Assembly (NCBI RefSeq): GCF_900102925.1
Contig: NZ_FNKI01000001.1
Span: 1,426,001-1,490,000 of the forward strand
Source: Flagellimonas zhangzhouensis
GTDB lineage: Bacteria; Bacteroidota; Bacteroidia; Flavobacteriales; Flavobacteriaceae
Direction: 5' to 3'
Length of the DNA: 64,000 bases
Shown here piece after piece: positions 7,558 to 12,761 of the stretch (the stretch's first letter is position 1; every line of letters starts with the position of its first letter). Under the pieces are notes generated by a model that saw only the letters and a program-made list of their open reading frames with translations, was not told where the DNA came from and made no database searches. The translations under genes were made by a program, and so were the position numbers.

Positions 7558-8457
7558 CTATATCTTTGAAGTCAGTTCTGTAAACAAACTTTCCAAATTT
7601 TTGTTTTTTCTGCTCAGTTGAAGTGTTTTCAATTGGTTGTCATGTGCAAAATCAAAAACGGCAGGTCGCATATCTTTGGACGTATTGAAGGTGATTTCAT
7701 AAACAAACCCCACAATGTTTTTTACGTTCGATACATTGGGCATTTGTTGCAACAACTGCTCTTCCACACGGTAATCAAATTCCACTTCGATAATCTGTTC
7801 CTCTGCTTCGCGAAGTTCTTCCAATTTTTTATCGGCCACCAATTTCCCTTTGTTAATGATGATTACACGGTCACAAACCGCTTCCACTTCTTTCATGATG
7901 TGGGTGGAGAGCAAAATGGTCTTCTCTTTTCCAATGTCACGAATCAATTTTCTTATTTCAATCAATTGGTTGGGATCAAGGCCTGTGGTCGGTTCATCGA
8001 GAATCAAAACTTCAGGGTCGTGCAACAAAGCAGCGGCAAGCCCCACACGTTGACGGTATCCTTTGGATAACTGCCCTATTTTTTTGTGGGCTTCGGGTTT
8101 CAATCCCGTTTGCTCAATTACTTCATTTATTTTTGATTTGTCTACGTTGTACACATCGGCATTGAAGGCCAAATACTCCTTTACATACATTTCCAAATAC
8201 AGCGGATTGTGCTCTGGCAAATAGCCAATACTTTTCTGAACATCCTTTTCTGCGTTCAACACATCAAAACCATTTACGGCGGCATCACCCTCATCGGCTT
8301 TGTAATACGTGGTCAGAATCCGCATCATGGTTGATTTTCCAGCTCCGTTTGGGCCTAAAAACCCGACTACCTCCCCCTTGTTAATGGTAAAGGAAACATT
8401 GTTCAATGCTTTTTGCGAGCCAAAGGTTTTGGTAATGTTCTGTACGGTAATGGACAT
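7558..8457 (-). CDS. gldA: Gliding motility ABC transporter ATP-binding protein GldA
   Basis: A 299-residue ABC ATPase: Walker A GPNGAGKST (35-43), signature LSKGYRQRVGLA, Walker B VLILDEPTTGLD, switch His in STHIMKE. The C-terminal 80 residues (after KLEELREAEEQ) match the GldA type rather than generic ATPases. In Flavobacterium GldA works with the GldF/GldG membrane proteins, needed for gliding; those partners are not in the window. It is a single minus-strand gene with a TATTTTTG promoter element upstream. Confidence in the ABC fold is near certain; the Gld label rests on overall similarity and on gldBC elsewhere in the window. Confidence 0.88.
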   Translation of the reverse strand: MSITVQNITKTFGSQKALNNVSFTINKGEVVGFLGPNGAGKSTMMRILTTYYKADEGDAAVNGFDVLNAEKDVQKSIGYLPEHNPLYLEMYVKEYLAFNADVYNVDKSKINEVIEQTGLKPEAHKKIGQLSKGYRQRVGLAAALLHDPEVLILDEPTTGLDPNQLIEIRKLIRDIGKEKTILLSTHIMKEVEAVCDRVIIINKGKLVADKKLEELREAEEQIIEVEFDYRVEEQLLQQMPNVSNVKNIVGFVYEITFNTSKDMRPAVFDFAHDNQLKTLQLSRKNKNLESLFTELTSKI

Positions 8458-8478
8458 TCAAATTGGATTTAAGGAATC

Positions 8479-8486
8479 CAAAAATA
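8479..8486 (-). promoter_or_regulatory. Bacteroidota -7 element for gldA
   Basis: The minus strand reads TATTTTTG (full TAnnTTTG match) 21 nt upstream of the gldA ATG. The -33 element is not obvious. Confidence 0.55.
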
Positions 8487-8656
8487 CACTTTTCGATGTT
8501 TTAATCCTTGTGTTTCAAACAGAAGAGATAGGATTACTTCAGCCTAATAAAATATAGAGCAAAGGGAGTATTCTTAAAAAAGCACGGTTTCTGTAAAATA
8601 ATATGCAGTGGAAATGTCTATTTTGAAAAAAAAATCAAAAAAATTTAGTGAAACAC

Positions 8657-8686
8657 TTTGCTTTTCAGAATGAATAACTAAATTGG
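8657..8686 (+). promoter_or_regulatory. Candidate promoter of the Phe/Tyr operon
   Basis: TTTG at 8657-8660 and TAAATTGG at 8679-8686 are separated by 18 nt, close to the Bacteroidota TTTG/TAnnTTTG layout (one mismatch in the -7). Transcription would start near 8693, about 12 nt before the leader peptide ATG. Confidence 0.5.
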
Positions 8687-8704
8687 CCGAGAATTTACAA
8701 GAAA

Positions 8705-8776
8705 ATGACAAACACGTATTTCTGGAACCGTTTTTATTTTTACTTCTTTTTTCAAGGAGCAACGGGACTATTATAG
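8705..8776 (+). CDS. Phe/Tyr-rich leader peptide of the aromatic amino acid operon (23 codons)
   Basis: A short ORF from ATG 8705 to TAG 8774-8776. Residues 5-16 read YFWNRFYFYFFF; in all, 6 Phe, 3 Tyr and 1 Trp of 23 residues. It precedes a terminator hairpin and pheA. This is the design of an attenuation leader peptide: ribosomes pause on the Phe/Tyr codons when charged tRNA is scarce. Its final codons contain the antiterminator strand (CGGGACT, 8763-8769). The product itself needs no function. Confidence 0.88.
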   Translation: MTNTYFWNRFYFYFFFQGATGLL

Positions 8777-8833
8777 ATACGTTTAAAGTATAACCAATAT
8801 ATAAAGTCCCGATGCAATCGGGACTTTTTTTTT
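8763..8833 (+). promoter_or_regulatory. Transcription attenuator: antiterminator strand and terminator upstream of pheA
   Basis: The terminator at 8803-8833 has a perfect 11-bp stem (AAAGTCCCGAT / ATCGGGACTTT), a GCA loop and a run of nine Ts, ending 3 nt before the pheA ATG. CGGGACT at 8763-8769, inside the end of the leader peptide, is exactly complementary to AGTCCCG at 8805-8811, the 5' arm. The two pairings exclude each other. CCGTT (8728-8732) can also pair with AACGG (8761-8765), a possible third, weaker hairpin. A ribosome stalled on early Phe/Tyr codons would leave 8763-8769 free and allow readthrough; one reaching the stop would cover it and let the terminator form. Confidence 0.85.
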
Positions 8834-8836
8834 GCC

Positions 8837-9664
8837 ATGGGTTTAAAAATAGCCATTCAGGGAATTAAAGGATCTAACCACCATCAAGTGGCCACAGATT
8901 TTTTTGGGGAGGATATCGAGCTGATGGAATGCAGTAGTTTCGATGCCGTTATCGACCATTTGATGAAAGGGACTGCTGATAAGGGCATTATGGCCATTGA
9001 AAACTCCATAGCAGGTTCCATTATTCCCAATTACAATTTGGTTTACCATAATAAGATTCATATTATCGGGGAGCATTATTTGGGGATCCATCACAATTTG
9101 ATGGTGCTCAAAGGAAAAACCATGGAAGATGTAAAAGAGGTGCATTCACACCCTATGGCCTTGTTGCAGTGCAAGGAGTTTTTCAAGGATTACCCCCAAA
9201 TTAAATTGGTGGAAAGTGCGGATACGGCCGAAACTGCCAAAAAAATTCAAGAAGAAGTACTGGAACATATTGCAGCCATCGCACCTAAGATGGCCGCAGA
9301 GTTGTACGATTTGGAAATTATCGCGGACAACATTCAGACCATTGTTAACAACTCCACAAGGTTCATTATTGTAAAAAAACAGAATAAAGTACTACCCAAA
9401 GAAGAAATCAACAAGGCATCGTTGCGATTCATAACCGACCATAAAAGGGGGAGTTTGGCCACCGTGCTGAACGTGATGAGCGATTGCAATATGAACTTGA
9501 CCAAGATTCAATCCCTTCCCGTGATTGAGACCCCTTGGAAGTATGCCTTTTTTGTGGATGTCACTTTTGAAAAATACGATCACTTTGCCAAAGCCAAATC
9601 GTTGTTGGAGATCATGTCCGAAGATTTTCAGGTTTTGGGTGAATATAAAAATGCATTGTTGTAA
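8837..9664 (+). CDS. pheA: Prephenate dehydratase
   Basis: Converts prephenate to phenylpyruvate, the last step before transamination to phenylalanine. The 275 residues contain a periplasmic-binding-like catalytic domain with IENSIAGS and the conserved NNSTRF motif (catalytic Thr), then a C-terminal ACT domain from about residue 195 (TDHKRGSLATVL, KIQSLP) that senses phenylalanine. There is no chorismate mutase domain; that activity is on the fourth gene of the operon. It is the first structural gene behind the attenuator, and its stop overlaps the next start (TAATG). Confidence 0.95.
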   Translation: MGLKIAIQGIKGSNHHQVATDFFGEDIELMECSSFDAVIDHLMKGTADKGIMAIENSIAGSIIPNYNLVYHNKIHIIGEHYLGIHHNLMVLKGKTMEDVKEVHSHPMALLQCKEFFKDYPQIKLVESADTAETAKKIQEEVLEHIAAIAPKMAAELYDLEIIADNIQTIVNNSTRFIIVKKQNKVLPKEEINKASLRFITDHKRGSLATVLNVMSDCNMNLTKIQSLPVIETPWKYAFFVDVTFEKYDHFAKAKSLLEIMSEDFQVLGEYKNALL

Positions 9665-10806
9665 TGATCACAGCCGATAGGTTAAATACCGTTCAGGAAT
9701 ATTACTTCTCCAAAAAATTGAGAGAGGTAAGAGGGTTGGTTGCCCAAGGCAAACCCATTATAAATATGGGAATTGGAAGCCCAGATTTGGCTCCATCACC
9801 TTTGGTGTTGGAAACTCTTCGGGATTCCATAACCGAAGCTGGGGCACACCAATATCAAAGTTATCAAGGTTTGCCGCAGTTACGGGAGGCCATTGCGGAT
9901 TTCTATTTGCAAAAGTTTGAGGTGACGGTAGACCCAGAGTCTGAAATTTTGCCGTTAATGGGTTCCAAGGAAGGAATCATGCACATTAGTATGGCTTTTT
10001 TAAATGTAGGGGATGAGGTGTTGTTGCCCAATCCAGGGTATCCGACCTATGCTTCCGTGACCAATTTGGTGGGAGCAGTGGCGGTAAATTACGATTTGAC
10101 TGCTGAAAATGGGTGGTTTCCAGATTTGGAGGCACTTTCCAAAAAGGATTTATCCAAAGTAAAATTAATGTGGATCAGCTACCCACATATGCCCACTGGC
10201 GCAACCGCAACTTTGGAACAACTTAAGTTGTTGATAGATTTTGCTAAGAAACATGAAATTCTTTTGGTAAACGATAACCCTTACAGCTTTGTTTTATCGA
10301 GCAATCCTACCAGTATTTTATCCATTGATGGAGCTAAAGAATGCACGTTGGAGCTGAATAGTTTGAGCAAAACCTTCAATATGGCAGGGTGGAGAGTAGG
10401 AATGGTATTGGGGAGTGCAGAGCATATCAACGCCGTACTCAAAGTAAAGAGTAATATGGACTCTGGAATGTTCTACGGCATTCAAAAAGGAGCTATTGCT
10501 GCATTACAAAGCGGGCCCGAATGGTTCGAAGAATTGGACAAAGTATACACCGAAAGACGCGAGTTGATGTTTCAATTAGCGGACAAATTGGGGTGCACCT
10601 ATGATAAAAATGCAGTGGGCATGTTTGTTTGGTGCAAATTGCCCGAGGGAGCAGAAGCATCCGAAGCGTTTATAGACAAGGTATTGTACGATAAGAATAT
10701 TTTCATCGCGCCTGGAACCATTTTTGGGAGCAACGGTGAAGGATACATTCGCTTTTCGCTTTGTGTGAAAGAAGAAAAAATCAAAGAAGCCATAGAAAGA
10801 TTTTAG
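9664..10806 (+). CDS. PLP-dependent aminotransferase (class I/II), probably aromatic
   Basis: A 380-residue fold-type I aminotransferase. The PLP lysine is in SLSKTFNMAGWRVGM, with NPGYPTY and NDNPYSF motifs binding the cofactor. Its place between pheA and tyrA, sharing one base with pheA, strongly suggests that it transaminates phenylpyruvate and 4-hydroxyphenylpyruvate to Phe and Tyr. Sequence alone would also allow aspartate or related substrates, so the specificity is inferred from context. Confidence 0.9.
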   Translation: MITADRLNTVQEYYFSKKLREVRGLVAQGKPIINMGIGSPDLAPSPLVLETLRDSITEAGAHQYQSYQGLPQLREAIADFYLQKFEVTVDPESEILPLMGSKEGIMHISMAFLNVGDEVLLPNPGYPTYASVTNLVGAVAVNYDLTAENGWFPDLEALSKKDLSKVKLMWISYPHMPTGATATLEQLKLLIDFAKKHEILLVNDNPYSFVLSSNPTSILSIDGAKECTLELNSLSKTFNMAGWRVGMVLGSAEHINAVLKVKSNMDSGMFYGIQKGAIAALQSGPEWFEELDKVYTERRELMFQLADKLGCTYDKNAVGMFVWCKLPEGAEASEAFIDKVLYDKNIFIAPGTIFGSNGEGYIRFSLCVKEEKIKEAIERF

Positions 10807-10809
10807 ATC

Positions 10810-11670
10810 ATGAAAGTAGTCATCATAGGAGTTGGATTGATTGGCGGTTCTTTTGCCAAGGATGTGAAAAAGTTGCATCCCGAAGCGGAAATCATTGGAG
10901 TGGATAAAAGTGAAACTCATTTGGATGAGGCACTTCAACTTCAAATCATAGATAAAAAAGGGGGTTACCAAGATTTGGCAACGGCGGATTTGGTGTATGT
11001 GGGTATCCCAGTGAATGTTTTGGTGACCGAGTTGCCCAAAATTTTGGATGCTGCAGGGGATGATACCGTGGTGATAGATGCAGGTTCCACCAAGAGATTG
11101 ATTTGTGAGCAGGTTGCCGAACACCCAAATCGAAGAAATTTTATGGCTTGCCACCCCATTGCAGGTACCGAATTTTCAGGTCCGACCGCAGCATTGGAAG
11201 GTTTGTACACGGGAAAGACCATGATCATTTGCGAAGTGGAAAAAACGGCTTTCAAATTGCAGGAAAAAGCATTGGCTATTTTTCAGGAAATCGGGATGCG
11301 AATTCGCTATATGAACCCCGAAGCACACGACAAACACATCGCGTACGTATCTCATTTATCACACATTAGCTCATTTATGTTGGGAAAGACAGTTATTGAG
11401 AAAGAGAAAAATGAACGTGATATTTTTGACATGGCGGGGAGTGGTTTTGAGAGCACCGTTCGCTTGGCAAAAAGTTCACCCGATATGTGGACACCGATTT
11501 TTGAACAGAACAAAGACAATGTGGTGGAAACCTTGGAAGAGTACATTCAAAACCTTACCACATTTAAGCAACTGATCTTGGACAACGATTTTGAAAATGT
11601 CCATCAAGAAATGAGTAACACCAATAAAATAAAACAAATACTAAAAGGAATACCACTTACAAAAAAATAG
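10810..11670 (+). CDS. tyrA: Prephenate dehydrogenase
   Basis: Oxidatively decarboxylates prephenate to 4-hydroxyphenylpyruvate for tyrosine synthesis. The N-terminal Rossmann motif is IIGVGLIGGSFAKD and the catalytic His lies in CHPIAGTEFSG; YVSHLSH follows in the C-terminal helical domain. The 286 residues are a bare dehydrogenase with no fused mutase or ACT domain. The start is 3 nt after the aminotransferase stop, so the genes are likely cotranscribed and share attenuator control. Confidence 0.95.
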   Translation: MKVVIIGVGLIGGSFAKDVKKLHPEAEIIGVDKSETHLDEALQLQIIDKKGGYQDLATADLVYVGIPVNVLVTELPKILDAAGDDTVVIDAGSTKRLICEQVAEHPNRRNFMACHPIAGTEFSGPTAALEGLYTGKTMIICEVEKTAFKLQEKALAIFQEIGMRIRYMNPEAHDKHIAYVSHLSHISSFMLGKTVIEKEKNERDIFDMAGSGFESTVRLAKSSPDMWTPIFEQNKDNVVETLEEYIQNLTTFKQLILDNDFENVHQEMSNTNKIKQILKGIPLTKK

Positions 11671-11678
11671 AGAGTATT

Positions 11679-12761
11679 ATGGAAAACAAGAAGGAAATGA
11701 GAAAATGGTTGGATGACATGAATTTGGGGCATCCTCTGGTTATTGCAGGTCCATGTAGTGCAGAAACCGAAGACCAGGTGCTTAAAATTGCACATGAACT
11801 AAAAGATACCGACGTGAATTACTACCGCGCTGGAATCTGGAAGCCAAGAACTCGTCCTGGAAATTTTGAGGGAGTAGGAGCAATTGGATTGAAGTGGTTG
11901 CAAAAAGTTAAGGAAGAAACAGGTTTAAAAACCGCTACCGAGGTGGCCAACAGAGCCCACGTTGATTTGGCATTGGAATATGATGTGGATTTATTATGGA
12001 TCGGGGCACGTTCTACCGTGAGCCCATTCATTATCCAAGAAATTGCAGATGCCTTGGAAGGTACCGATAAAATTGTTTTGGTAAAGAACCCAGTAAACCC
12101 AGACCTTTCTTTGTGGTTGGGTGCAGTGGAGCGATTGTACTCTGCCAATATAGAAAAGTTGGGTGTGATCCATAGAGGATTCTCTACCTACGAAAAAACG
12201 AAGTACAGAAATATTCCAGAATGGCAATTGGCCATTGAATTGCAAACCAAGTTTCCTGATCTTCCAATTATTAATGATCCTAGCCACATTACTGGTAAAC
12301 GTGATATGATTTTTGATGTATCCCAAACCGCTTTGGATTTAAACTTTGACGGTTTGATGATCGAAACACATTACGATCCAGACAATGCTTGGAGTGATGC
12401 TGCACAGCAAGTAACCCCAAAAACATTGGTTCAGATTATGAAAGATCTTCGAATTAGAAAAGAAACCGACGAGGAAGCTGAATACAATAGCAAGTTGACC
12501 AACCTTAGAGCACAAATTGATGTGTTGGACAATCAGTTGATTGATTTGTTGGGTAAAAGAATGAAAGTTTCTGATGGTATTGGGGAATTGAAAAAGCAAA
12601 AGAACGTTGCCGTACTTCAAAGTAACCGATGGAACGCCATTTTAGGAAATATGATCTTGGAAGGTGAGCAAAGAGGATTGAGCGAGGAGTTTGTTTTGAA
12701 AATGTTCAAAGCGATTCACCAAGAATCCATCAACCACCAAGAAAAAATTATCAACGCATAG
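11679..12761 (+). CDS. Bifunctional DAHP synthase / chorismate mutase
   Basis: Residues 1 to about 265 form a 3-deoxy-7-phosphoheptulonate synthase of the KDO8P-synthase-like type (AGPCSAET, KPRTRPGNFEG, NDPSHITGKRD). Residues about 270-360 are an AroQ-type chorismate mutase (LRAQIDVLDNQLIDLL, then a KK..V..S.RW pattern). One protein thus catalyses the first shikimate step and makes prephenate for the pheA and tyrA products. In related enzymes the mutase domain confers feedback control by prephenate or chorismate. It closes the operon 8 nt after tyrA and is followed by a strong terminator. Confidence 0.94.
   Translation: MENKKEMRKWLDDMNLGHPLVIAGPCSAETEDQVLKIAHELKDTDVNYYRAGIWKPRTRPGNFEGVGAIGLKWLQKVKEETGLKTATEVANRAHVDLALEYDVDLLWIGARSTVSPFIIQEIADALEGTDKIVLVKNPVNPDLSLWLGAVERLYSANIEKLGVIHRGFSTYEKTKYRNIPEWQLAIELQTKFPDLPIINDPSHITGKRDMIFDVSQTALDLNFDGLMIETHYDPDNAWSDAAQQVTPKTLVQIMKDLRIRKETDEEAEYNSKLTNLRAQIDVLDNQLIDLLGKRMKVSDGIGELKKQKNVAVLQSNRWNAILGNMILEGEQRGLSEEFVLKMFKAIHQESINHQEKIINA

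Follow-up and report, generated by a model that had tools for sequence, protein, structure and literature searches.

A probable ribosome-mediated attenuator with a phenylalanine- and tyrosine-rich leader precedes the pheA operon of Flagellimonas zhangzhouensis and recurs across Bacteroidia

The DNA immediately in front of pheA in Flagellimonas zhangzhouensis very probably encodes a classic ribosome-mediated transcription attenuator of the whole pheA–aminotransferase–tyrA–DAHPS/CM operon, whose enzymes make phenylalanine and tyrosine. A preliminary description of the 64,000-nucleotide stretch analysed here (hereafter the window) had proposed such a mechanism, and the conserved leader and covarying helices of this element support it. 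The arrangement comprises a leader reading frame rich in end-product codons, with the coding pattern and in-frame indels of a translated sequence; an intrinsic terminator between this leader and the first gene; a mutually exclusive anti-terminator, whose 5' arm would be masked by a ribosome that has passed the control codons (as covariation, simulation and spacing indicate); and a protector (1:2) hairpin that would hold arm 2 in an untranslated leader. Our fuller reading, to which we assign a probability of roughly 0.6, is of an old, Bacteroidia-wide attenuator that responds jointly to Phe and Tyr (and to Trp where its codon is kept), that controls the entire aromatic branch including DAHP synthase, and in which selection acts on how far the last aromatic codon lies from arm 2 and not on the stop codon. 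The features of the locus are as follows.

Start at 8457, minus strand: gldA, the divergent upstream neighbor (gene annotation)
8657–8660, plus strand: TTTG, candidate −33 promoter element (from sequence), 18 nt upstream of the −7 box
8679–8686, plus strand: TAAATTGG, candidate −7 promoter element, a motif conserved in relatives
8705–8776, plus strand: leader reading frame MTNTYFWNRFYFYFFFQGATGLL with its stop, 23 codons including six Phe, three Tyr and one Trp
8714–8732, plus strand: protector 5' arm (region 1), codons 4–10, from the fold; an equivalent hairpin covaries in relatives
8761–8782, plus strand: protector 3' arm, overlapping arm 2 and extending beyond the leader stop codon
8763–8769, plus strand: anti-terminator 5' arm (region 2, arm 2), CGGGACT, complementary to 8805–8811 (arm 3)
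8803–8813, plus strand: terminator 5' arm (region 3), of which 8805–8811 is shared with the anti-terminator; loop at 8814–8816
8817–8833, plus strand: terminator 3' arm (8817–8827) and nine-T run (8825–8833), from sequence, fold and covariation
8837–9664, plus strand: pheA, prephenate dehydratase (PF00800, E 5.7e-59) with a weak ACT domain (PF01842, below cut-off)
9664–10806, plus strand: class I/II aminotransferase (PF00155, E 1e-61)
10810–11670, plus strand: tyrA, prephenate dehydrogenase (NF006307, above cut-off)
11679–12761, plus strand: DAHP synthase with a C-terminal chorismate mutase domain (PF00793 and PF01817, above cut-offs)

The composition and coordinates given earlier for the leader frame match the sequence, as do the positions of CGGGACT and its complement AGTCCCG (8805–8811) and the perfect 11-bp terminator stem (−14.7 kcal/mol), whose nine Ts are followed by GCC and then by the pheA ATG at 8837. 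Ten of the 23 leader codons are aromatic, the highest fraction among the 690 short ATG-initiated reading frames of the window. When 8458–8836 was shuffled with dinucleotide content preserved, a comparably aromatic frame arose on the plus strand in 2 of 2000 sequences and a perfect 10-bp stem with eight Ts in 0 of 2000; both the leader and the terminator stem in front of pheA thus exceed chance. The four genes that follow are separated by gaps of at most 8 nt, and the closest named relative of the window PheA is that of Muricauda sp. NBRC 101325 (97% identity). We considered whether the hairpin might be an ordinary gene-end terminator, and rejected this because the upstream neighbor gldA is divergent: when the window was scanned for reading frames of at least 120 residues preceded, within 130 nt, by a hairpin and T-run, three cases were returned, of which only the one at pheA has no co-directional gene directly upstream, the other two trailing such genes.

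Bacteroidetes promoters follow the consensus TTTG/TAnnTTTG. A TAnnTTnG motif is present in 65 of 80 leaders, lying 25–26 nt upstream of the leader ATG in 58 of those, while TTG occupies the −33 place in just 24 of the 65, which argues only weakly for a −33 element. Transcription of the leader would, by the position of these motifs, begin near 8690.

Conservation in close relatives had been named in advance as a check on both the leader frame and the paired arms, and it proved strong. Of 80 family relatives, 79 have the leader in front of pheA (the contig of the other starts within it), with a core of YFWNGFYFYFFF and variants thereof, and terminator, anti-terminator and protector all covary. 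Codons 5–7 and 10–16 are aromatic at 507 of 510 aligned positions despite exchanges of TTT with TTC, of TAT with TAC and among Phe, Tyr and Trp, and two leaders (L060 and L065) have each lost exactly one codon in frame; it is this retention of aromatic codons through synonymous and Phe/Tyr/Trp exchanges, together with in-frame indels, that argues for translation of the leader. At codon 7, 44 of 51 close relatives have Trp and the others Tyr or Phe, so the Trp codon is dispensable. Sequence and comparison together show the leader frame and its conservation, as they do the operon, the three helices and the spacing treated below.

A covariance model (R1) built from 49 leaders matches, at E ≤ 1e-3, 279 of the 397 Flavobacteriaceae genomes searched, with individually examined matches reaching down to 1e-5; all 20 sampled matches (E 7e-18 to 1e-5) precede pheA–aminotransferase–tyrA–DAHPS/CM and carry a Phe/Tyr-rich leader. 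A second model extends to other families of the class, where the verified real matches again precede pheA; five class-level matches (L173, L174, L186, L188 and L195) were discarded as bare terminators, having neither pheA nor an aromatic leader. Sampling the class from pheA itself placed the leader at 22 of 29 examined genes, 19 of 26 outside Flavobacteriaceae and in about a dozen families. The aromatic run is shorter in some leaders (families f4 and f17), and the make-up of the operon varies between families (pheA adjoining DAHPS/CM in some) with the leader retained. The other 7 of the 29 pheA genes were without the leader. It is absent from all four members of family f13 (L208–L210 and L215), where the aminotransferase lies downstream of pheA, and no Phe/Tyr leader precedes pheA in f16 (L199, L201) or f55 (L200); in L199 and L201 pheA appears close behind another reading frame. 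Of 129 Bacteroidia genomes with a completeness of 90% or more, 94 yielded no pheA, and a PF00800 search returned the same 35 genomes, from which we conclude that most of the sampled assemblies lack prephenate dehydratase rather than having been missed (a control Bacteroides genome does match the enzyme). Many of the Bacteroidia without it may live with hosts or be auxotrophic for Phe.

One further locus departs from the single-leader layout. In L216 (family f50), two Phe/Tyr-rich leader frames, MLQTRFFFGYYYFYAAA and MVPTQQVFFTYGYYFFYLKKPARCCQC, lie in tandem at about 1185–1480 before pheA, each followed by a hairpin and T-run; this is possibly a double attenuator.

The three helices were assessed by counting pairs on alignments A2 and A3, with shuffle controls that leave shared ancestry in, so that the covariation counts given here are to be read as evidence and not as probabilities. 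The terminator is paired in 99.8% of cells, with double changes at 6 of 9 pairs, and is equaled by no shuffle; the anti-terminator is paired in 96.8%, with double changes at 3 of 7 pairs, and across 56 divergent leaders none of 2000 permutations of the arms matched arm 2 to arm 3 as well as each leader's own pair. Of the three helices the protector is the least uniform: most species pair GTAT..CTGGAACGGTTTT with GGGACTGTTCTAG.ATAC (90.7% of cells paired; double changes in 28 cells versus 7.2 in shuffles), and covariation is weak for the part inside the reading frame alone and clearer once the distal part is included. Its register shifts in the window's own clade (codon 9 = CGT), where it moves to ACGUAUUU/AGAUACGU plus CCGUU/AACGG. 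In the window the minimum-energy fold pairs 8714–8721 with 8775–8782, 8723–8725 with 8768–8770 and 8728–8732 with 8761–8765, and the full-length leader RNA folds as protector plus terminator. The competing hairpin suggested earlier, between CCGTT (8728–8732) and AACGG (8761–8765), is therefore present in the predicted fold, but as one segment of a longer protector and as a peculiarity of species with Arg9 (CGT), most relatives instead pairing GTATttCTGGAACGGTTTT with GGGACTGTTCTAGtATAC, which covary.

A small hairpin of the form ATAC...GTAT at 8777–8792, between the leader stop and arm 3, recurs with changed bases in many relatives. It shares bases with the distal protector arm and possibly competes with that arm.

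The scheme we infer from this architecture rests on a promoter upstream, on coupling of translation to transcription, and on stalling and read-through, with shortage of either amino acid expected to suffice. A ribosome would translate the leader close behind RNA polymerase. Were charged tRNA-Phe or tRNA-Tyr scarce, it would wait within the aromatic run (codons 5–16), leaving arm 2 (8763–8769) free to pair with arm 3 (8805–8811) before arm 4 exists, and transcription would read through into pheA. With both amino acids ample, the ribosome would proceed beyond codon 16 and its leading edge would mask arm 2; arms 3 and 4 could then form the terminator and transcription would end 3 nt upstream of pheA. 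In an untranslated leader, region 1 would pair with region 2, the protector so formed would hold arm 2, and termination would be the default. Shortage of Trp would act likewise wherever the Trp codon is retained.

We modeled ribosome position by allowing only the RNA ahead of the ribosome to fold, with its leading edge placed 15 nt beyond the A-site codon's first base. In this simulation of the window leader, pairing of arm 2 with arm 3 is open until the A site has moved beyond codon 16, which is the last Phe, and closed from codon 17. Where this boundary could be measured, in 104 leaders, it nearly always coincides with the end of the aromatic run; the boundary cases of −7 or −8 mostly have a terminal aromatic codon within or past arm 2, and in 4 of 108 leaders an anti-terminator could not be clearly identified, in some of them because the terminator end had been set wrongly. 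Counted from its first base, the last run codon lies on average 13.3 nt upstream of arm 2 (s.d. 1.8, 135 leaders), and in 130 of 135 leaders it is 10–17 nt upstream, mostly 13, figures partly shaped by the definition of the run and by confining the search for arm 2 to the stretch downstream of it, where the arm was picked solely by complementarity to arm 3. Among the 56 divergent leaders the distance to arm 2 varies less from the last run codon (s.d. 2.6) than from the start codon (4.8) or stop codon (8.6), which indicates that the spacing of the control codons is the conserved feature, as attenuation demands. Equilibrium folding of a ribosome-free RNA ending at arm 3 favors the anti-terminator (0.87), so that default termination would depend on the protector forming first.

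Joint sensing of Phe and Tyr, as had been proposed, is most likely, since the controlled genes make both amino acids and all 135 leaders contain codons for both (means of 5.8 Phe and 3.3 Tyr per leader, with Trp missing from 37 of the 135), although codon content identifies potential stall sites rather than actual stalling; the codons of every leader agree with the proposal. We regard it as less probable, if still worth weighing, that the attenuator senses essentially Phe alone, with Tyr codons tolerated as spacers. TTY and TAY codons are one base apart and the run must remain U-rich, Phe exceeds Tyr by about 2:1, close relatives almost always have Phe at codons 14–16, the end of the run, and E. 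coli pheL has seven Phe and no Tyr. Against this reading, Tyr is present in all 135 leaders; Tyr13 does not vary among the 51 close relatives, which use both TAC and TAT for it, and tyrA belongs to this operon, whereas E. coli tyrA is encoded apart from the pheA operon, on the opposite strand.

The remaining alternatives concern the hairpin and the leader themselves. The stem, nine Us and 3 nt might also or mainly hide the pheA AUG, a stalled leader ribosome opening the stem; the closeness of the T-run to the start codon (3 nt in the window and similar in many relatives) is what one would expect of this, but in other relatives pheA starts some 60–100 nt further downstream behind an identical arrangement of leader and terminator, and the U-run is conserved, as a terminator requires. 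Since the start distance varies while leader, terminator and U-run stay, a translational effect is at most additional, and we think this account improbable. Still harder to sustain is a constitutive partial terminator beside a leader frame of no regulatory role. Hairpins with T-runs are common, and in the same genome, where a covariance-model search found no second copy of the element above noise, the low-scoring matches are probably mostly bare terminators; conservation of the aromatic run, of the codon-to-arm spacing and of the covarying anti-terminator and protector nevertheless stands against it. Least credible of all is a ligand- or tRNA-binding leader (a Phe riboswitch or T-box) in place of a translated one: it would suit an amino-acid operon whose 5' region is structured, yet the reading frame is conserved, no Rfam family reached cut-off at the window site or at six divergent loci, and no T-box or known riboswitch appeared at the window site even below cut-off in a lax scan.

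That lax scan, of 4227 families, returned as its best hit the Phe_leader family (RF01859; E 0.0008, 32.1 bits, model positions 1–125 of 125), short of the gathering cut-off of 55 bits. The element works like Phe_leader but is not to be filed as a member of RF01859, and as no current family catches it, it could seed one of its own. To our knowledge, the regulation of amino-acid synthesis in Bacteroidota has been little studied, and an attenuator of this type would offer a ready mechanism for balancing Phe and Tyr across much of Bacteroidia. It would need coupled or near-coupled transcription and translation in its hosts, and its roughly 135 natural leader variants gauge the ribosome-to-arm distance that an attenuator tolerates.

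Lopatovskaya and colleagues reportedly surveyed attenuation across bacteria in 2010, and an earlier prediction of this element in Bacteroidota may exist. The literature searched, which included few subscription journals, yielded no joint Phe and Tyr leader, nor its codons or class-wide range. The preliminary description knew of no case for this operon in Flavobacteriia; this holds for the leader itself, which we did not find described, but not for the site, as a 2021 study of Flavobacterium psychrophilum lists a structured 5' element before pheA that is conserved in other Flavobacteriaceae genera, and mentions in the same paragraph clues for leader-peptide attenuation upstream of amino-acid operons (PMC9723704). 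That element shares gene and family with ours; where the main text of the study deals with it, leader sequence, arms, sensed amino acid and range beyond the family are not given (PMC9723704).

The closest relative of the element is the E. coli pheL–pheA attenuator, with which it shares a short Phe-rich leader frame, alternative anti-terminator and terminator hairpins and pheA directly downstream. The two differ in that pheL carries codons for Phe only among these amino acids, as against Phe and Tyr (and often Trp) in the leaders described here, and in that pheL precedes a fused chorismate mutase/prephenate dehydratase with tyrA located separately, whereas the Flagellimonas leader precedes pheA–aminotransferase–tyrA–DAHPS/CM. 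Leaders that combine amino acids are familiar from enterobacteria, where thrL carries codons for Thr and Ile, and ilvL those for Ile, Val and Leu. As in those systems, a single leader here would sense several end products of its operon, although the amino acids, the phylum and the sequences differ; the element is very probably an attenuator of the ordinary type, and one of unusual breadth and probable double specificity.
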